This document shows positions 17,826 through 62,495 of a stretch of 64,000 nucleotides of DNA, piece after piece. Both the position numbers and the translations under genes were made by a program. The notes beneath the pieces were generated by a model, which worked only from the letters and a program-made list of their open reading frames with translations, ran no database searches and was not told the DNA's origin. The stretch is from positions 83,748,417 to 83,812,416 of the forward strand of contig NC_092803.1 in assembly GCF_040954645.1 (NCBI RefSeq), in the 5' to 3' direction. The stretch comes from Diabrotica undecimpunctata (Eukaryota; Arthropoda; Insecta; Coleoptera; Chrysomelidae). Numbering within the stretch: the first letter of the stretch is position 1; every line of letters begins with the position of its first letter.

Positions 17826-17920
17826 AAACGATTTCCGGAGTTGACATCGAAACGTCAAACAGTAGTTAAAAATGTAATTTTCATTACAATCAATTGTGGC
17901 TTATTCCCATATAAATATAG
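17826..17920 (+). repeat. Degraded Penelope-type terminal repeat, split by the gypsy element
   Basis: AACGATTTCCGGAG...TCGAAACGTC, then CAATTGTGGCTTATTCCCAT, is the reverse complement of the repeat seen at 7447-7560 and 57165-57256. It stops at the gypsy insertion point. The sequence after the gypsy element (TATTTAACTT, 24279) plausibly continues the same repeat. It gives a relative date: the gypsy insertion is younger. Confidence 0.5.
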
Positions 17921-18287
17921 TGTTACGTAAAAATATGAGTCATAGTTTTAACCTTTAAAACATGTTTTTATTCACTAATAATTCTGTTTTATTGTAGAAA
18001 TTTTGGCGAAAGATCTAGATTCAAATTATGGTGAATCATCCAACTAGATGCTTCTCGATTTTTCGATGCAAGACAATGCGATCTTTCGATGCTGTTCTAG
18101 TATATCAGGATTTCGTATATAAATACAACATTTTTATATGGAGGGACAGTTAATTCTCAAGACCCGCGCTCGCGAATTTGTTACGTACGGATATAATAAA
18201 TTATTGTCAGATAAGTTAATATAAATAAAGAAATAAATTAAATCCGTAAGTGTTATAAATATTGAACCTTTTAATAAATTCACAACA
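17921..18287 (+). repeat. 5' LTR of the gypsy element
   Basis: It starts TGTTACGTAA and ends TTCACAACA. A TATATAAATA box lies near 18115, with a candidate start region (GGACAGTTAATTC) about 30 bases on. AATAAA-type polyadenylation signals lie near 18222-18234. It reads identical to 23908-24274. It supplies promoter and RNA 3'-end functions. Confidence 0.95.
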
Positions 18288-18363: not shown

Positions 18364-19689
18364 ATGGCTACGATTTATGAGCTGACAGTGACTAATTTAA
18401 GAAGACATCTTGAAGACAGAGAATTAGCTTCCACCGCAAAAAAGGCTGAGTTAGTCCAACGACTAAAGAACGCTTTGCTAGAAGAAGGTCTAGATCCAGA
18501 GACTTATATATTTGAAGACGCTGTCATCTCGTCGATTTCGAAATTGGAGAACAAAGTTTCTGACGATATTTCGAAAGTTTCTTCTGATGTAGCCAAAGTT
18601 TCTGGTGATGTAGCCAAAGTTTCTGGTGATGTAGCCAAAGTTTCCGGCGACATCGCATCATTGGAGAACAAAGTATCCGGCGAAATCGCTTCTTTAGAAA
18701 GCAAAGTTTCTAACGAGATTTCTTCTCTGGAAAGCAAAGTTTCTGCTAACATCTCTAAAGTCACTTCAGAGATATCTGCTCTTGACGATAGAGTGTCTTC
18801 GTTAAAAAACCAAGTTGCTGCCGATATGTTGGCCTTCGAAGAAAAGATATGGAAAGAGATGGAAAGGAAGATGGAGGAAACAGGGACAGCAGAGAGAGGT
18901 AACAATCCGATTACAGTGGAGATAAAAGAAGACGAGACGAAATGTAAGTTGGAGACACGGCCGAAATTTGAAGGAAGTGGAGGTTCTATTCATGTTAAAG
19001 TCCCAACTTTCGACGGAAAATCATCATGGAACAACTACATGAAACAGTTCGAATCAGCCGCAAGAGCGCATGGATGGTCTGAAAAAGAAAAGGCTGTAAA
19101 CCTGACTATCGCTCTTCGAGGAGATGCCTTAGATGTGCTTCAGACCATAGCCGTAGAGGAGACCGATGATTTCGAACAACTGAAGAAGAGGTTAAATATG
19201 CGATATGGCCACGAACATTTGGAGCATGTATATCAGTCGCAGCTTAAAAATCGTAGACAGAAGAAAGATGAGGCTCTTCAAGAATATGAAGTAGATATTG
19301 CCAGATTAGTACGATATGCTTATCCAACAGCTCCCGAAGACATGATGGAAAAGTTGGCCGTTCAAACGTTTATTGATGGTCTTCGTGATCATGAAATGCA
19401 GAGAACACTGCGATTAGCTCGTCACAAGACGCTGGTTGATGTCTTATCCGCCGCCCTCGAATACGAGTCAGCTACGCAGGCCTCTGGCGGGTACAGTAAA
19501 GTTAGGACTGTAAAAGAGGAAGGAGATGAAGATAAACTTGACCAGCTCGTTAATATGATGAAAAGCATGACATACAAGAAAACGAAGACCATCAGATGCT
19601 GGAATTGTGGCGAAATAGGACACGTACGAAGCTCCTGTAAGCACCCTAGGTATGACGCAAATCAAGAAACTCACCATCAGGAAAACTAG
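18364..19689 (+). CDS. gag: Gag polyprotein with N-terminal SAP domain, coiled coil, capsid and zinc knuckle
   Basis: The ATG at 18364 opens a 441-residue frame. Residues about 4-38 form a SAP-type helix-loop-helix (TVTNLRRHLEDRELASTAKK then L-V-Q-R-L), a nucleic-acid-binding motif best known from chromatin proteins. Residues about 55-165 are a coiled coil; at DNA level it includes a 21-base unit (SGDVAKV) repeated about three times at 18583-18645. About 205-370 is a retrotransposon capsid domain (PTFDGKSSWNNYMKQFESAA, then LRGDALDVL). A CCHC zinc knuckle CWNCGEIGHVRSSC lies near 19597. Gag assembles the particle and packages element RNA. It ends at TAG 19687-19689, overlapping the Pol frame by about 34 bases in the -1 frame. 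Confidence 0.93.
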   Translation: MATIYELTVTNLRRHLEDRELASTAKKAELVQRLKNALLEEGLDPETYIFEDAVISSISKLENKVSDDISKVSSDVAKVSGDVAKVSGDVAKVSGDIASLENKVSGEIASLESKVSNEISSLESKVSANISKVTSEISALDDRVSSLKNQVAADMLAFEEKIWKEMERKMEETGTAERGNNPITVEIKEDETKCKLETRPKFEGSGGSIHVKVPTFDGKSSWNNYMKQFESAARAHGWSEKEKAVNLTIALRGDALDVLQTIAVEETDDFEQLKKRLNMRYGHEHLEHVYQSQLKNRRQKKDEALQEYEVDIARLVRYAYPTAPEDMMEKLAVQTFIDGLRDHEMQRTLRLARHKTLVDVLSAALEYESATQASGGYSKVRTVKEEGDEDKLDQLVNMMKSMTYKKTKTIRCWNCGEIGHVRSSCKHPRYDANQETHHQEN

Positions 19690-22600
19690 AACGGGTCAGC
19701 CTTAGGGGGGCAGCTTCGACCCAAAACTTTTCCAAAGACCCTCTCATACTAATAGCTTCTTTGAAATGTCGTGAAGATAGTGTATATGTAGATGGAGAAA
19801 TAAATGGTAAAAGACATACGTTGTTGGTGGATACCGGAGCGACCAGAACCATTATACGTCCAACAGTTATAAACAGCCGTAAGAGACTGTTACCAACGAG
19901 GTTGCGACTTCGGACCGCTACAGGTGAAAATGCCAACATTCATGGAGAAATCCAGGTACAATTGGGAGTTGGAGCAGAAAAGTTCGTCCATACTGTTATA
20001 GTTGCTGACATCGAAGAGGATGTTATATTAGGAATGGACGTAATGAATATGCATGGATTCCAATTGGATTTTAAGAATAAGGTAATCAAGGTTGGCAACG
20101 AGGAGGTATTTCTTCATCCACATAATGACAACACCGTGCAAGCAGCCATTACAGAAGATACAGTCGTGCCTGCGAGAAGCGAAACGATCATAGTAGCGCG
20201 ACTACAGGGAATTGTAGACGAAGGGACACCTGTTATGATGGAGCCTTGGAACCACGACGATGAGGTTGGTCGTGGAATCATAATTGGAAAGGAATTGGTG
20301 ACTTCGGCTAAAGAAATTCCTGTGAGACTTATCAATGTCAACGACTACCCAGTGACCATCAAGAAAGAGACAAAGGTAGGAACTTGTGTACCTGTGACAT
20401 CCATAATCCGTCAGGCGACAACATCTGATAATTCCAACGACAAATTCGACCAAATGGTTGCAGTTGCAGGACAGTCTCTAAATCAGATGGAGAAAAGGAA
20501 ATTAAGGGAATTTCTTCGGCAGTATCGTGATATTTTCGTACCGAAAGGAGGAAAGACGGGAAGAACTACCGTTGTCAAGCATAAAATTGATACTGGTAAT
20601 GCTAAGCCAATTCGTCAAACAGCTCGACGATTACCACAGGCGAAAAGAGAGGAAGCTGAAACGATTGTTCAGGAAATGAAGAAAGACGGGGTGATAGAAC
20701 CTTCTACGAGCCCATGGGTCTCTCCGGTGGTCCTGGTTAAGAAGAAAGACGGAACGACAAGGTTCTGTGTGGATTACCGTTTGCTGAACAACGTTACCAA
20801 GAAAGATAGTTATCCTCTGCCTCGGATCGATGACACATTGGACACATTGGCTGGAAGTAAATTGTTTTCTACTTTGGATTTGAAGTTTGGATACTGGCAG
20901 GTAGAAATGGACCCAGTAGATAAAGAAAAGACGGCCTTCACCACAGGATCTGGATTGTGGCAATTCAACGTTATGCCATTTGGACTCTGTAATGCTCCTG
21001 CGACATTTGAGAGGCTTATGGAAAATGTGTTGAGAGGGTTATCTTGGAAAACATGCCTGGTTTATTTGGATGACATAATCGTCTTGGGGGAGACATTCGA
21101 AGAACATCTGAAGAATTTAGAAAACGTTTTTAATCGACTTAAAGCTGCCCAATTGATGTTAAACCCCAAGAAGTGCCAGCTATTTCAAGGTAAAGTCAAT
21201 TATCTGGGTCATATAGTCAGTAAAGAAGGAGTGGCCGTGGATAAGGGAAAAATCGATTCCATTAAGGAATGGCCAAAACCAACTGACAAACATCAAGTGA
21301 GAAGTTTTCTTGGACTATGTACTTACTACCGGAGGTTTATTAAGAAGTTTGCAGATATCGCTAAGCCATTAACGCGACTTACGGAGGAAGCAAGAGATTA
21401 CCGCTGGGATACAGACTGCCAAAATGCCTTTGAGACCTTGAAAAAGCATTTAATAACAGCACCAATTTTAGGGTATCCACTGCCAGAAGGAGAGTTCATC
21501 TTAGATACAGATGCAAGTAATGTGGGAATTGGAGGAGTGCTGTCTCAGATTCAAGGAGGACAGGAACGAGTCCTCGGATATTTTAGTAAAGTTCTTTCAA
21601 AACCTGAGCGGAATTATTGCGTCACGAGAAGAGAACTTCTGGCAGTAGTGAAATCAGTAGAGCACTTCTATCAATACCTCTATGGAAGGAAGTTTTTAAT
21701 CCGAACCGACCATGCCGCCCTTAAGTGGTTGATGCAGTTTAAGAATCCAGAGGGTCAGATAGCCAGGTGGATCGAACGACTCCAAGAATACGATTTTAAG
21801 ATTGAGCACCGAGCCGGAGTTAGCCACAGAAACGCTGATTCTCTTTCCAGACGGCCATGCCCAGCAGAGTGTCCCCACTGCAACAAAACGGAATCCAAGG
21901 AAGCAGCAGTGCTAAGAACGACGATTGTCAATGACGACTGGACGCCTACTAAGATAAGGGAAGAACAAGAGAGAGATCCAGTTATACAGAAAATCCGAAA
22001 ATGGAAAGAGGAAAACCGTCGACCACCTTGGCAGGAAATATCAAACCTATGCTCAGTAGTTGAGACGTATTGGGCCCAGTGGGACTCATTTATCATCGAA
22101 GATGGCTTGCTCAAACGAGTCCTGGAAAATGATGACGGTTCAGAGAAAAGAAGACAGTTGGCGACCCCAAAGAGCAGAATAGCCGAAGTACTTCGTCAGT
22201 TACACGACAGTCCATCGGGAGGGCATTTTGTTGTAAGGAAAACCCTTCAGCGAATTCGGGAACGGTTTTATTGGATGAACAGTTCCGACGACGTAAAAGA
22301 CTGGTGTAAGAAATGTACTATTTGTGCTACGAGTAACGGGCCTCACCGGAAAAGGAGAGCTCCTATGAGACAATATAATGTTGGAAGCCCGTTTGAAAGA
22401 ATAGCTTTGGACATTGCAGGGCCATTTCCAGAAAGTGAAAATGGGGGCAAGTACATGTTGGTAGTAATGGATTACTTCACTAAGTGGGTCGAGATTTACG
22501 CACTTCCAGACCAGAAGGCCGCCACCGTTGCAGATAAGTTGATCCAAGAATATATCAGCCGATTTGGAGTGCCTTTGGAGATCCATAGTGACCAAGGCAG

Positions 22601-23945
22601 GAACTTCGAAAGTGATCTATTCCAAGGAATATGTGATAGACTAGGCATGAAGAAAACAAGAACTACCGCGTATCATCCGCAATCGGATGGTATGGTAGAA
22701 CGAATGAATAGGACAGTTGGCAAGTATTTGACAAAGATGGTGTCCGATCATCAGCGAGACTGGGACCAATACCTTCCGTTCTTCACAATGGCCTACAGAT
22801 CTGCTGTTAACGAATCAACGGGCCAGACACCAGCCAGAGTCCTATTCGGACGCGAAATGCGACTACCTTGTGATCTAGAATTTGGGTGTCGACCTGGAGA
22901 AGATGTAGCAGGTGAAGATTATGTGATCGAATTACGAAGAAGAATGGACGATGTACATGAGTTGGTCCGTTCCCACCTTCAGATCGCTAGCGACCGAATG
23001 AAGAAACGGTACGATACACAAGCCGAAAAGGGTTGCTTTAAGAAGAACGACAAAGTATGGCTGTATAATCCCAAGAAGCGAAAAGGTTGTTCTCCCAAAT
23101 TGCAGCAGTTTTGGGAAGGTCCATACCTCATCATGGAGAAGATCAACGATGTCATCTACCGAATAAGCAAGATTCCGAGGGGAAAGCCGATGATAATACA
23201 CCATAACCGGTTGGCATCTTTCGAAGGTGACCACGACGTAGATGAAGAAGTGGAAGTAAACCAAGTCCAAGATGTGTCTAACCTCACGTTTGAGGAATTC
23301 ATGGGTGCCTATGGAGGTACCGGTAAAGCGAGACATGGTGTTACCACTGAAGAAAAGCAAGATCTACTCGCGCTCCCCGATGACTACTCGCTGGCCCTTA
23401 CCATCCCGGCCAGTATCAAAGACGCACCAGGGTTGGCATCCGTCTTTCGAAGGAAGTTTGGTCGAGTTGCAGAACTTCAATGCCAAGTGCCAGCTCCCGG
23501 TAAAACCTTGAAACTCCAAGATGCATCACGTTACCTTTTCTACCTGGTAACAAAAGACACTGCCCGTGACCAACCTACCTACCGAGATGTATGGGAAGCC
23601 TTACTTCAATTGAGAGGGCACGTACTAGAGTCCGACGTGCAAAAGTTAGCCATGCCAAAGTTGGAGTGCCGCCAATTAGATTGGAGGGTTATCCGAAATA
23701 TGGTGGAGGAGATCTTTAAAGACACCGAAGTCCAGGTGTTAGTCTGTTGCAATCCGCATAGTTACTGGTGCGGAGAGAAAACCGTCCCTTGTCATTTTTA
23801 TACAACTGGAAGTTGTAAAAGAGGGTCCAGTTGCCGATACCAGCATACCGTTCCAGTTCTAGTCCCAACAAGGTTCCAGGAGGAACCATCTTTTGAGAGG
23901 GGGGCAATGTTACGTAAAAATATGAGTCATAGTTTTAACCTTTAA
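19656..23945 (+). CDS. pol: Pol polyprotein: protease, RT, RNase H, integrase, plus macrodomain-like and CCCH zinc-finger tail
   Basis: The frame is open from 19656, overlapping the end of Gag in -1, so expression by -1 frameshifting is expected (AAAAC at 19682-19686 just before the Gag stop is a possible slip site). Counting residues from 19761: protease LLVDTGATRT (about 22) and ILGMDV (about 89); RT with CVDYRLLN (about 337), FGLCNAPATF (about 412) and catalytic YLDD (about 434); RNase H TDASNVGIGG (about 582); integrase HHCC zinc region (about 814-855) and DDE residues at LDIAGPF (about 882), SDQGRNF (about 942) and VERMNR (about 978); a GPY/chromo-like segment near 1112. Unusually, about 1206-1330 reads like a macrodomain (PGLASVFRRKFG, YLVTKDTARDQPTY, MPKLECRQLDW, MVEEIF). 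It is followed by a C-x7-C-x5-C-x3-H zinc finger at about 1343-1361. The frame ends 38 bases inside the 3' LTR. Confidence 0.93.
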   Translation, partial: RKSRNSPSGKLERVSLRGAASTQNFSKDPLILIASLKCREDSVYVDGEINGKRHTLLVDTGATRTIIRPTVINSRKRLLPTRLRLRTATGENANIHGEIQVQLGVGAEKFVHTVIVADIEEDVILGMDVMNMHGFQLDFKNKVIKVGNEEVFLHPHNDNTVQAAITEDTVVPARSETIIVARLQGIVDEGTPVMMEPWNHDDEVGRGIIIGKELVTSAKEIPVRLINVNDYPVTIKKETKVGTCVPVTSIIRQATTSDNSNDKFDQMVAVAGQSLNQMEKRKLREFLRQYRDIFVPKGGKTGRTTVVKHKIDTGNAKPIRQTARRLPQAKREEAETIVQEMKKDGVIEPSTSPWVSPVVLVKKKDGTTRFCVDYRLLNNVTKKDSYPLPRIDDTLDTLAGSKLFSTLDLKFGYWQVEMDPVDKEKTAFTTGSGLWQFNVMPFGLCNAPATFERLMENVLRGLSWKTCLVYLDDIIVLGETFEEHLKNLENVFNRLKAAQLMLNPKKCQLFQGKVNYLGHIVSKEGVAVDKGKIDSIKEWPKPTDKHQVRSFLGLCTYYRRFIKKFADIAKPLTRLTEEARDYRWDTDCQNAFETLKKHLITAPILGYPLPEGEFILDTDASNVGIGGVLSQIQGGQERVLGYFSKVLSKPERNYCVTRRELLAVVKSVEHFYQYLYGRKFLIRTDHAALKWLMQFKNPEGQIARWIERLQEYDFKIEHRAGVSHRNADSLSRRPCPAECPHCNKTESKEAAVLRTTIVNDDWTPTKIREEQERDPVIQKIRKWKEENRRPPWQEISNLCSVVETYWAQWDSFIIEDGLLKRVLENDDGSEKRRQLATPKSRIAEVLRQLHDSPSGGHFVVRKTLQRIRERFYWMNSSDDVKDWCKKCTICATSNGPHRKRRAPMRQYNVGSPFERIALDIAGPFPESENGGKYMLVVMDYFTKWVEIYALPDQKAATVADKLIQEYISRFGVPLEIHSDQGRNFESDLFQGICDRLGMKKTRTTAYHPQSDGMVERMNRTVGKYLTKMVSDHQRDWDQYLPFFTMAYRSAVNESTGQTPARVLFGREMRLPCDLEFGCRPGEDVAGEDYVIELRRRMDDVHELVRSHLQIASDRMKKRYDTQAEKGCFKKNDKVWLYNPKKRKGCSPKLQQFWEGPYLIMEKINDVIYRISKIPRGKPMIIHHNRLASFEGDHDVDEEVEVNQVQDVSNLTFEEFMGAYGGTGKARHGVTTEEKQDLLALPDDYSLALTIPASIKDAPGLASVFRRKFGRVAELQCQVPAPGKTLKLQDASRYLFYLVTKDTARDQPTYRDVWEALLQLRGHVLESDVQKLAMPKLECRQLDWRVIRNMVEEIFKDTEVQVLVCCNPHSYWCGEKTVPCHFYTTGSCKRGSSCRYQHTVPVLVPTRFQEEPSFERGAMLRKNMSHSFNL
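23895..23907 (+). promoter_or_regulatory. Polypurine tract
   Basis: GAGAGGGGGGCAA lies immediately before the 3' LTR TGTTACG. It would prime plus-strand DNA synthesis. It is also inside the Pol reading frame. Confidence 0.85.
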
Positions 23946-24274
23946 AACATGTTTTTATTCACTAATAATTCTGTTTTATTGTAGAAATTTTGGCGAAAGA
24001 TCTAGATTCAAATTATGGTGAATCATCCAACTAGATGCTTCTCGATTTTTCGATGCAAGACAATGCGATCTTTCGATGCTGTTCTAGTATATCAGGATTT
24101 CGTATATAAATACAACATTTTTATATGGAGGGACAGTTAATTCTCAAGACCCGCGCTCGCGAATTTGTTACGTACGGATATAATAAATTATTGTCAGATA
24201 AGTTAATATAAATAAAGAAATAAATTAAATCCGTAAGTGTTATAAATATTGAACCTTTTAATAAATTCACAACA
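23908..24274 (+). repeat. 3' LTR of the gypsy element
   Basis: 367 bases, read as identical to the 5' LTR, followed by the ATAG target duplication at 24275-24278. The Pol stop codon (23943-23945) falls inside it. Confidence 0.95.
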
Positions 24275-24278
24275 ATAG

Positions 24279-41431: not shown

Positions 41432-44400
41432 CTATATAAACTCGCCAACACGCTTGGCCAGCGCGGCGTTTCAAGGCCAAATTTCCCCCCATGATGGATA
41501 CATCAAGTGTACGGCCCTCAGTCCCCGGCGGTTCCACTTTCCCTGACCAAGGTGGCGGTCAGAATAGTGTTGGAGCAGAGGGTGCTGAGAATCACCGGAA
41601 GAGATCAGGCCACCAAAACAAACGACAAATGCATATATGTGCCTACAATGTACAAACTTTATCAACAGAAGCATCAATGATAGAACTGGAGAATGAACTA
41701 CAACACATAGAATGGGATATAATCGGTATAAGTGAAGTTAGGCGTCGAAAAGAAGATCAAATAATACTTAAGTCTGGAAATATGTTCCATTTCAGAGGAA
41801 ACGAAGATTCATCTGTTGGAGGAGTGGGTTTTTTAATCCATAAAAAATGGGTACCAAACATAATCACAATAAAAAGTATATGTACCAGAGTCATTTATCT
41901 TATTTTTAAATTAAACCCAAGATACAAACTTAAAATTATACAGGCTTACGCACCAACTACGAGTCACTCGGATGAGGAAGTTGATCAATTTTATGAAGAT
42001 ATCAGAGCAGCTATACAAACTTCAAAAACACATTACACATTGATAATTGGAGATTTTAACGCCAAATTGGGATTCAAACAAGATGATGCAGAATCTGCTA
42101 TGGGAAACTTTGGATTTGGTGAGAGAAATGAGAGAGGTAACAGGCTTCTTGACTTCTTACATCAGGAAAATCTCTTTGTGATGAACTCATTCTTCGGAAA
42201 GAAACCCCAACGTAAGTGGACATGGAAGAGTCCGAACCAAAGAACAAAAAATGAGATTGATTTCATAATATCAAATCGGAAAGATATTGTTCAGGATGTA
42301 ACAGTATTGAATAAATTTTCAACAGGGAGCGACCATAGACTAGTTAGAGCAAAAACCACTTTTAACACTGAAGTTGAAAGAACAAAAATGATCCTCAAAA
42401 AGAAAAGTGGAAGGTGGCTGTTCCCAGAAGATATAACACTTTACGAAGAAAATATTAAGACTAGTTTGGATACACACGACTTAGAGAATATCAGCATCAA
42501 TGAAATGAACAATAATATTACCCAAATATTGAAAGAAGCTGAAAAGAAATACTGTCCTCGCCCTGAAAATAATAACAAAAAATTAAGCCACAACACAAAA
42601 CATCTTCTAGAGGAAAGAAGAAAACTTAGGGAAAATCAGGATCATAACCAAAATGAACTAAGAATTTTGAATAAGAAAATTAAAAAGGAAGTTAGAAAAG
42701 ATCTGAGACGATACAATACGATGGAAATAACTAGAGTAATAGAAGAAAACAAAAGCTTGAAAGTACTCGGACAGAGCATGTCCATTGGAAGAAAAAACGT
42801 CCACAAATTAAGAAATGAACAGGGGCAAATCATTGAGGATAGAATTCAAATTATGAATACGATAGAGAGTTTTTATAGACAACTATACAAAGAACAGCAA
42901 TGTAACCGGAGTGGATCATTACCAAAGATAATCAATCAGGGATCTGAAATTTTACCGGACGTAATACCCAATGAAGTTCGAAGGTCAGTGCAAGAAATGA
43001 AAAACAATAAGTCCCCCGGAGGCGATGAAATAGTGGCAGATGCCTTGAAGGTGGCTGGAAAAAGATTATGGCAGGTCCTTGCCAAACTATTCACTAGATG
43101 TTTGCAGGAAGCAATAACACCAACCCAGTGGTATAACGCAGAAATTATCATACTTCATAAAAAAGGGGATGCTACCGACCTCAGGAATAACAGGTCCATA
43201 AGTCTACTTTCACATATTTATAAACTATTTACAAAAATAATTACGAAACGACTAGAATATAAATTGGAATTTTATCAGCCCATAGAACAGGCGGGTTTTA
43301 GAAAAGGCTATGGAACAAACGATCACCTACTGGTAATAAAAAATCTTATAGAAAAATGCACTGAATATAATAAACCACTAGCTTTAATATTTGTCGACTA
43401 TGAAAAGGCATTCGACACCGTAAATCAACAAAAAATGTTGGAAGCCTTGACAGAATGCCGAATTGACTATCGGTATATAAATATAATTAAACATATATAC
43501 CAAAACGCAACAGCCAGTGTTAGAGTGGGTGATCGTGAAACCCAGAAATTCCCGATACAACGTGGAGTACGCCAGGGGGACACCATATCGCCGAAACTGT
43601 TCACTACGCTTTTGGAATATATATGTAAAAGGGCAAAACTGACCGACAAGGGCATAAACATAAACGGAGAAAAGCTTAGCCATCTAAGGTTTGCAGATGA
43701 TATTGTACTAATAGCTGATAGGATAGATGAGGCCAAAGAACTTTTAAATCAGCTCTACCTTTCCTCGCTAGAAGGGGGATTGAAAATAAATATATCTAAA
43801 ACCCAGATGATGACAAATCTTGTAGTCAGCGAAGATATATGCGTAGGAACAAGATGCATAGACCAGGTAATGGCCTATAAATACCTAGGTCATGAGATTC
43901 GCATAGGAAAAGATAGCCAAACCGTTGAGCTTCTCCGTCGTATAAGACTGACTTGGGCAGCCTTCGGCAAGCTGAACCATATTTTCAAATCGTCTGATAT
44001 ACCAATATGCCTTAAAAGAAAAACGTTTAATCAGTGTGTTTTGCCAGTGTTAACTTACGGTGCCGAAACGTTGACCATGACAAGGAGAACAGTTCAATCC
44101 GTGTGTGTCAAAGGGCGATGGAGCGTGCTATGTTGGGCGTTTCACTACGAGACAAGATCCCAAATCGCCAGCTACGACAAAGAACAGGAGTGGCTGATGC
44201 AGTAGAGAGAGTAGCAACACTAAAATGGAACTGGGCAGGTCACGTGGCTCGAATGACAGACAATAGATGGACAAAGCGGATACTGGAATGGAGACCAAGA
44301 GATGATGCCTACCGAAGTAGAGGTCGTCCACCAACACGTTGGACTGACGATCTAAAACGTTGTCATAGGAATTGGATGCAAGAAGCACAAGATCGAAATG

Positions 44401-60166: not shown

Positions 60167-62495
60167 CCCTTAAATGCCCGTGATATGAAAATAACCATAA
60201 ATGCCCATGTGGGGTCTCCTAGGGACCCCACTAAAATTTTCAATTTAGTAACGTCATTTAGCACTGACTAAAAGGAAAACACGGTTAAAAATAATTTTAA
60301 GCGTATTTGAATAATTTTTATTTATTTTTCATACAAAATTAACGGCTTTTCTAGAAACAAATTATTTTCAATTCGAACAAAATTAAAATTAAATAATAAT
60401 ATAAGCATATAACTTTTAGTTGCAATTTTTACATACAATAGTTTTTTCTTCTTTTCTGTGCACCTGGCATATAAATTTTTTGCAAAAAGAGCAAACGGTA
60501 TTCACTTTTCTGTCACAGTTTCGCGGACACTGGTAACAACGAGCACGTTTCTTAGCTGAATGGACGGATTGAGTTGCAACTTCGGTAGTTGGGTTTACCA
60601 TTGGTATGCCACAATCTTTTAGAGCAGATTTTACATAGGCTTTATGTTTTATATATTTCGCTCTTTTTTCCATGTTGTTTCGAGCAAGCTCAGCCCCTAA
60701 TTGTAACAGGAAAATACGTCTTCGTGAAAAATTATTTTTCTTCCAATCAGGATTTTTTTCAATGTATAAAATATAGGCATTTAGTGCACATATGTCTATA
60801 ACATTCATAAAGAGCCTGAATGGCCAACGAGCAGTTCTTCTTTTACAGGAATATTCCCTAATCAGTTTGTCGGCATTATCAACACCACCCTTGGTATTAT
60901 TATAGTCTAAAATCATCAAGGGTTTGTTTTGAGAGTCTTGACAAATTATATCACTATCGTGTTGACTTGAAATAAGATGTACCATCCTGTGTATTTTAGG
61001 TATGTACGAAACCATAGCTAATTCTTTAGTAAAAGCAAATATTGACGACTCCGCAGGTCTTTTTGTCAAACTTAGTTGTGGTGGTGTATCAGGTTTATTT
61101 TTGCGGACGGTCCCAAGTAAAGTAAGGTTTTTAGATAAAAGATATTGAGCAAGAGGAACACTGGTAAAAAAGTTGTCAGTTGTAATTCCTCTCCAACAGC
61201 CATGATATGGTTCCACCAGATCTTTCACAACACGAAATCCCTGATTTTTCTCTATTCTACCACCTGGTAGTTTTGCAAGGTACACCTGAAGTTTTGATAA
61301 ATAAGATGTTTTAACATCCGCGGCAGCCCAAATTTTTATCCCATAGCGGCAAGGTTTTGATTTTATATATTGTCTAAAAGGACACTTTCCTCTAAAACTC
61401 ACTAACTGTTCGTCAACGGTTATATGTTCGTATGGTTCAAAGGCTTTGTCACAGTTAGAGACGAACATGTCCCAAATTACTCGTATCGCCGCTAACTTAT
61501 CCTGTTCCTTCCGCTCCACCCTGGTCACTTTGCCATCAAACCTCAAGAAACTCGATAATTCTTCAAATCGGTTCCTAGCGAATGCGGCTGTAAAAAATGA
61601 CCGGCGTATTGAGGTGTCTGTAGACCATATCTCTCGTGTCGATTCTTTCCCACACCTTAAAGCACCAGCTTTGATAAGTGCTCCTTAAAAGCTATCCAGT
61701 TCATTGTTGGTAAGTACCGTCCACTCTTTTTTGTTATTCGGATGTTTTTCGTTCCACTCTTGATAACGCCTAACAGCTTCTTCATTAGTATGAAGGCATA
61801 TGACATTCTTCATCTCTTCGGTCAAAAATAAATTGAAATAGTCTAAAAACGTGTTGGAATTTTTACTATAGTTTGTTAAGCCTGGATGTACATTTATAAT
61901 ATTTTTTTGTTGCCTCTTGGATCTCACGAAAGGTAGGCTATTCCACTGCATTCCAGATTTGGATGTATATGTTGGACCACTAACCTCACTAATATTATCG
62001 TCCACTTCGGTAGGTTCTGCATCTGATTCCTCGTCACTGTTGACTTCTAAATTGTCCTCAGTTTCCGAAACATTTTCCTCAAAAACATCTTGCTCTTCGC
62101 TATCTGATTCGTCGGTAATCTCATAGTCGAAATCGGAGTCTGATATCCCTTCTTCTATATTTCGGATAATTTTTTCATGTTCTTGGTCGCTTATTGTCAT
62201 TTTCATTCTCTTACGGTCCATTTTTCAATGTAAACTGACGAAAAATGTTAAAAATAATAAAAATATTCTGGTGCCTCTAAATGCCCAATCGGGGTCACAG
62301 CGAGACCCCACTTATCTAAATCTCTCTTACAGACCACTGCACCTCACGAATGTTCGTGGTATACTAACAGAAAACGTAGGAGACACGTCCACACAAATAC
62401 CTGATTGCGCGGTTGCCAAATGTTCAAAATAAAGATATTATAGCCAAAAATGTATGTCTGGGGTCCCATAGTGACCCCGATTGGGCATTTAAGGG
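60167..62495 (-). mobile_element. Complete piggyBac-type element
   Basis: Exact 13-bp terminal inverted repeats CCCTTAAATGCCC (60167-60179) and GGGCATTTAAGGG (62483-62495) are flanked by TTAA on both sides (60163-60166 and 62496-62499), the piggyBac target. Subterminal palindromes GTGGGGTC..GGGACCCCAC (60209), GGGGTCACAGCGAGACCCC (62289) and GGGGTCCCATAGTGACCCC (62460) are probable transposase-binding or structural sites. One transposase gene fills the interior. Confidence 0.95.
60416..62221 (-). pseudogene. piggyBac transposase with a single in-frame stop
   Basis: From ATG 62221 the frame runs to 60416 (601 codons) with one TAA at 61687-61685. The N-terminus is acidic (Asp/Glu/Ser-rich, to about residue 80). 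The DDE_Tnp_1_7 domain begins near residue 120 (N-V-H-P-G-L-T, then TFLDYFNLFLTEEM) and holds the three catalytic aspartates: AADVKTSYL (about residue 300), ITTDNFFTS (about 350) and TKGGVDNADKL (about 445). A C-terminal Cys-rich finger (CYQCPRNCDRK, then CSFCKKFICQVH) completes it. The stop lies at residue 179, in D-S-F-(stop)-G-A-L-I-K-A-G. The enzyme would excise precisely at TTAA. Apart from the stop the copy looks intact, so inactivation was recent. Confidence 0.92.

Follow-up and report, generated by a model that had tools for sequence, protein, structure and literature searches.

The stretch of DNA analyzed here (the window) comprises 64,000 nucleotides from Diabrotica undecimpunctata (assembly GCF_040954645.1, contig NC_092803.1, positions 83,748,417 to 83,812,416 of the forward strand) and contains a retrotransposon whose Pol polyprotein continues beyond the integrase into a macrodomain of the TARG1/OARD1 type followed by a CCCH zinc finger (Table 1). 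Long terminal repeats (LTRs), a gag frame and the order from RNase H to integrase identify it as a Ty3/gypsy LTR retrotransposon; the reverse transcriptase domain PF00078 was found in the relative P0002, the window Pol having been scanned in pieces. Because both 367-bp LTRs are identical and an ATAG duplication accompanies them, the insertion is recent, and since Pol terminates inside the 3′ LTR, no space remains after it for an env frame.

Table 1. Features of the window element and of the genomic locus L021.
Feature	Coordinates	Strand	Details
5′ LTR	17921..18287	+	367 bp, TG...CA; identity to 3′ LTR complete over whole length
3′ LTR	23908..24274	+	367 bp; encloses final Pol codons
Target-site duplication ATAG, left copy	17917..17920	+	read from element flanks
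Target-site duplication ATAG, right copy	24275-24278		read from element flanks
gag frame, 443 aa	18358..19689	+	Retrotrans_gag, CCHC knuckle
Pol frame, 1394 aa from first listed start	19761..23945	+	no internal stops
RNase H-like domain PF17917	21483..21791	+	E 5.1e-35
Integrase H2C2 zinc-binding domain PF17921	22167..22337	+	E 1.8e-19
Integrase core rve PF00665	22440..22679	+	E 9.6e-14
Integrase C-terminal segment PF22938 Integrase_p58_C	23118..23216	+	E 8.6e-13
TARG1/OARD1-type macrodomain	23331..23753	+	model residues 18-158, numbered from 23280
Asp at TARG1 D20 place (adenine contact), retained	23361..23363	+	alignment; role as reported in PMC6397177
Lys at TARG1 catalytic K84 place, retained	23553..23555	+	alignment
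Phosphate/catalytic loop PKLEC--RQLDW	23655..23684	+	vs TARG1 PRIGCGLDRLQW: 2 residues fewer, D125 absent
CCCH zinc finger, C-x7-C-x5-C-x3-H	23790..23846	+	PF00642 29.3 bits (cut-off 20.5), E 7.9e-7
L021	G000:C3:100934236-100934616	minus	open frame 760 residues; macrodomain vs P0008 E 1.2e-23

An initial annotation of this locus had recognized a macrodomain and a CCCH finger at the end of Pol from the pieces PGLASVFRRKFG, FYLVTKDTARDQPTY, MPKLECRQLDW, MVEEIF and C-x7-C-x5-C-x3-H, all of which indeed lie downstream of the integrase C-terminal segment in a single open frame, an arrangement far beyond chance. The span it gave, 23376-23860, takes in the zinc finger and is slightly short at its 5′ end, the macro fold extending over approximately 23331-23753. 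In a search of 177,635 PDB sequences, residues 3-132 of the tail matched human TARG1/OARD1 chains with an E-value of 1.3e-21, and the predicted fold of the tail is a macro fold, nearest to TARG1 among the matches listed. By sequence, profile and predicted fold, the tail domain is with very little doubt a TARG1/OARD1-type macrodomain, as had been claimed. The CCCH finger was likewise recovered above the profile cut-off, and the best PDB matches of this part are to CPSF4.

Profile searches with Pfam and NCBIfam named only CCCH-type or Torus families in the window tail, with other matches, weak and sub-threshold, to DarG and to Srp19 (E 0.03), and the candidate identity as an ordinary annotated integrase extension was rejected on these grounds. 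Neither of the outcomes that the initial annotation had named as refuting it, a predicted fold other than macro or profile matches to a common integrase extension, was therefore observed. The Pfam Macro profile PF01661 gave no match in the window tail and remained below its gathering score of 22 in P0013 (12.4 bits) and P0015 (16.1 bits), which may be the reason why such tails stay unannotated. This shortfall of the element tails tested would also be expected if the macrodomain likeness had arisen by convergence or chance within an ordinary integrase extension, an explanation that we rejected as exceedingly improbable in view of the TARG1/OARD1 sequence match and the predicted fold.

Searching the 1.74-Gb genome with the tail returned 5,819 first-look candidates, and the best 150 by score, which were evaluated, were all stop-free with E-values of 1.5e-134 or better. 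Copies of the tail are numerous in this genome, the copy number of the element being known as first-look counts. P0002 and P0003 are proteins of the window lineage carrying the tail, and a genome search with P0003 yielded 30 loci, all of them copies of the window family (family A) at 96-99% identity. With P0008 as the query, a second gypsy family with a macro-CCCH tail (family B) was found. Of the 20 loci fetched, 19 (L022-L040) belong to it, with identities of 37-39% to P0008 and 39-42% to the window tail, and the remaining one, L021, is of another kind and is considered below. P0011 from Diabrotica virgifera also belongs to family B. Further tail-bearing proteins are P0012, P0015 and P0013, the last from the ladybird Harmonia axyridis, together with P0014, a record (EPUL_004988) labelled as the mildew Erysiphe pulchra, which shares 95% integrase and 91% macro identity with P0012 and probably entered the mildew assembly as contaminating insect DNA. 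The same integrase-macro-CCCH architecture is thus present in beetles of two families, and the proposed capture of the module by a gypsy lineage is borne out by its presence in several element families and database Pols. No relative was found among the IMG/VR viral contigs scanned.

Pieces of the element tail were also seen in the Diabrotica records P0004-P0007 and P0010, annotated as 'OARD1-like', tachykinin receptor or uncharacterised protein; the fragments named OARD1-like are P0004-P0006, from D. virgifera and D. undecimpunctata. These records are probably pieces of transposons to which gene or exon annotations were given, and the element tail would explain why 'OARD1-like' Diabrotica gene models resemble transposon fragments and not host genes.

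To read the pocket, nine long element rows were aligned to TARG1, in which, as reported in PMC6397177, D20, L21 and F22 lie at the adenine, the GxG loop at the phosphates, and S35, T83 and D125 at the distal ribose, with K84 as the nucleophile. D20, T83 and P118 are retained in all nine elements, K84 in seven and D125 in five, and K84 and D125 occur together in four (P0012, P0014, P0013 and P0015). P0012 and P0014 keep D20, T83, K84, D125 and the loop GCGLD, whereas the loop variants GCSLD and ECGLD occur in P0013 and P0015, respectively. The published TARG1 pattern TKx(30,35)Px[IL]GxGxD is matched by two of the nine elements (P0012 and P0014) and by L021, and is absent from the window lineage and family B. 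In all three rows of the window lineage the loop reads EC followed by the loss of two residues, with D125 absent. Family B has Arg in place of K84 in both of its rows; its loop is GHALD in the genome copy, whereas P0011 carries Glu where D125 would be. Position 35 departs from Ser in most elements, as it does in L021.

The window family therefore has K84 and lacks D125, whereas family B lacks K84 and has, or formerly had, D125; no single loss accounts for both, since the missing half of the catalytic pair is not the same in the two families. We infer that A and B lost hydrolysis independently while the adenine side of the pocket was retained. Judged from these residues, hydrolysis has probably been lost in the window family, in agreement with the initial annotation, which had pointed to the altered G-C-G loop; the loop is in addition two residues shorter, leaving D125 without a counterpart. 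Mutation of D125 is reported to abolish deacetylation of O-acetyl-ADP-ribose by OARD1 (PMC5413906), and TARG1 K84A is described as failing to rescue DarT toxicity (PMC8501950). Both reports, together with the missing D125 and altered GxG loop of the window family and the Arg at K84 of family B, speak against the module being, or having recently been, an ADP-ribosyl hydrolase that acts on element proteins, cDNA ends or local chromatin to counter PARP-dependent silencing or break signalling, with its activity decayed in A and B. Such a role as an eraser would fit the full pattern in P0012 and P0014, the K84 and D125 kept in P0013 and P0015, the removal of ADP-ribose from DNA by TARG1 described in PMC8501950, and the report that, in Drosophila lacking PARP-1, five of the eight mobile elements with significant misregulation are upregulated, possibly as an indirect effect (PMC7712786); on balance we consider it unlikely.

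Architecture and ancestry were compared across the same nine rows, excluding the short fragments P0004-P0007 and P0010. All nine show the order of integrase, a short linker with F-M-x-x-Y, macrodomain and CCCH finger. A tree of the macro sequences from 12 rows places all nine elements on one side of a branch labelled 85/92, and the next branch, labelled 89/93, joins L021 to them; the alternative grouping of L021 with A and B, to the exclusion of C and D, was marginally rejected (p-AU 0.044). A single capture by the lineage appears likely from this tree, which sets the elements beside L021 with moderate support, and an L021-like host gene is the favoured donor. The macrodomain of L021 keeps D20, T83, K84, GCG and D125, and L021 itself is possibly a host OARD1-type gene and the donor. 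Inspected by eye, L021 shows a charged N-terminal part, a canonical TARG1-like macrodomain and then an apparent second, degenerate macro-like region.

Next, selection on the tail was evaluated. Between the window family and family B (L027), the proportion of synonymous differences (pS) is saturated at 0.85, and the nonsynonymous divergence (dN) reaches 0.52 for the macrodomain and 0.39 for the C-terminal part of the integrase; the P0003 search supplied no intermediate subfamily for which dN/dS between families could be taken short of synonymous saturation. Ratios of nonsynonymous to synonymous change (pN/pS) from copies picked by protein similarity, to the tail for A and to P0008 for B, were discarded, as this choice depresses nonsynonymous counts. 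A sample independent of the tail was instead formed from 20 of at least 40 copies matching an integrase DNA query, the 40 listed being 100% identical over the queried 300 bases and located on C1 and C2. All but one of the 20 have an open macro part, the exception being L088, which diverges near base 145. In L075 the zinc finger is interrupted by a stop, and the remaining stops fall in the variable C-terminal end, from tail residue 179 onward. For the window and 19 copies, with L088 excluded, we counted 10 synonymous changes on 92 sites and 10 nonsynonymous changes on 310 sites in the macro part (pN/pS 0.30, one-sided p 0.007); the corresponding counts for macro plus finger are 12 and 15 (pN/pS 0.36, p 0.009). 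These numbers are small and agree with the deep conservation, and the macro-CCCH tail is a conserved trait of the lineage with signs of purifying selection. That the tail is a functionless passenger, a neutral readthrough or transduced piece of host sequence, would accord with the copies broken in the macro part (1/20) and in the zinc finger (1/20); its conservation across families at saturated synonymous divergence and in two beetle families, together with the low pN/pS of the macro part, makes this very improbable.

Pairwise comparison of the nine rows gave macro identities of 42-91%. In 35 of 36 pairs the macrodomains are less alike than the integrases; the sole exception is the window against P0003, with just 112 integrase positions. 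This lower identity, and the divergence of pocket residues among branches while the macro part is under purifying selection, would suit a fold retained in A and B solely as a protein- or nucleic-acid-binding surface that has no ADP-ribose ligand. The retention of the adenine-contacting D20 and of T83 throughout the elements argues otherwise, and we regard such a scaffold as rather unlikely, though well within consideration.

We propose that a beetle Ty3/gypsy lineage captured a host TARG1/OARD1-like macrodomain once, at the 3′ end of pol, and that the macrodomain and the CCCH finger would then have been maintained by selection as a C-terminal extension of the integrase, with some branches keeping the complete TARG1 catalytic pattern and the window family and family B probably no longer acting as hydrolases. 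Being a physical component of the integrase polyprotein, the module is likeliest to work at or near integration. The macrodomain might serve there as a reader that tethers the pre-integration complex to ADP-ribosylated chromatin or ADP-ribosylated repair intermediates, while the CCCH finger would supply an RNA or protein contact; in branches with the full catalytic pattern, erasure of ADP-ribose would also be possible. As a whole, this explanation of a single capture, a selected module, hydrolysis lost here and an integrase-borne reader or tether falls just short of an even chance. The reader or tether role, which would require a domain that still binds its ligand after losing hydrolysis, is plausible at rather less than even chance, and we advance only tentatively the fuller course in which the captured TARG1 module began as a working hydrolase, lost its catalytic dyad at least twice (A and B) and became an ADP-ribose reader steering or licensing integration at PARP-marked chromatin or breaks.

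Several observations weigh against this proposal. Four TARG1 residues, F22, H32, C33 and S35, are changed in the window copy, two of which (F22 and H32) are retained by the related P0002 and P0003. The GxG phosphate loop of the window copy is also shorter and contains a Glu, so that ADP-ribose binding may have been lost in the window family as well. Changes at several positions of the pocket beyond the G-C-G loop make binding by this family less sure than the initial annotation implied. Within the macro part, the structure model is least certain at residues 51-60, the altered G-A-G loop (predicted local distance difference test score, pLDDT, 66), and the CCCH part is modelled at pLDDT <50. The single capture depends on the two tree branches described above and is favoured, not proved, because neither is starred. 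Finally, a Pfam scan of the L021 frame found no family, neither integrase nor Macro.

Among known systems, chromoviruses are the textbook case of Ty3/gypsy elements that acquired a reader of chromatin type behind the integrase, namely a chromodomain that binds methylated histones. The present element has macro and CCCH domains where the chromodomain would be, and no chromodomain was among the families found at E-values up to 1 in the window integrase and tail pieces. ALC1 offers a further analogy, as a non-catalytic reader joined to a DNA-acting enzyme; unlike ALC1-type readers, the element domain is nearest to TARG1 among the matches listed and its partner is an integrase, not a remodeller. 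The ALC1 macrodomain is placed in the same clade as TARG1 (PMC6397177), and its absence from the matches listed for the element domain excludes nothing. Compared with TARG1/OARD1 (C6orf130) itself, which normally removes ADP-ribose from proteins and DNA, the element domain sits in a retrotransposon Pol, lacks D125, has an altered and shortened GxG loop and is followed by a CCCH finger, whereas the DarG antitoxin macrodomain, which belongs to a bacterial toxin-antitoxin system, matches the element tail much more weakly.

According to a review (PMC4977317), which attributes the finding to Basta et al. 2009, some fish epsilon-like endogenous retroviruses carry additional open reading frames including macro domain proteins, and on this description the uptake of macrodomains by retroelements is not new as such. 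In those fish viruses the macrodomain is an additional frame of a retrovirus, whereas here it is of TARG1 type, in frame with the Pol of a beetle gypsy element and supplemented by a CCCH finger. Full-text literature searches, returning titles and abstract openings and covering subscription journals sparsely, found, among the papers listed, no description of an LTR retrotransposon with a Pol-fused macrodomain, a negative result of limited weight. A gypsy lineage whose integrase bears a TARG1-type macrodomain and a CCCH finger, and whose branches keep or lose the catalytic pattern, appears to be new. If the proposal is true, this would be a second captured reader or eraser on gypsy integrases, chemically distinct from the chromodomain and linked to PARP signalling, and a beetle Ty3/gypsy lineage would be exploiting host ADP-ribose signalling directly. 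The natural variants, from the full pattern of the P0012 type to families A and B, each lacking half of the dyad, let hydrolysis and binding be separated through comparison of natural proteins.

Additional features were observed in the element and its surroundings. Many genome copies have open frames of approximately 1413-1431 residues and many others of approximately 1780-1850, two classes that look as if gag and pol share one frame in some copies only. Residues 9-40 of the window Gag show a weak SAP-like match (E 0.0012, under the Pfam cut-off), and a run of 21-base repeats lies inside the window gag at 18552-18776. Elsewhere in the window, an intact 904-aa frame with non-LTR retrotransposon endonuclease and reverse transcriptase domains occupies 41491-44205, and a 376-aa frame at 60416-61546 carries DDE_Tnp_1_7, a piggyBac-type transposase (E 1e-54).
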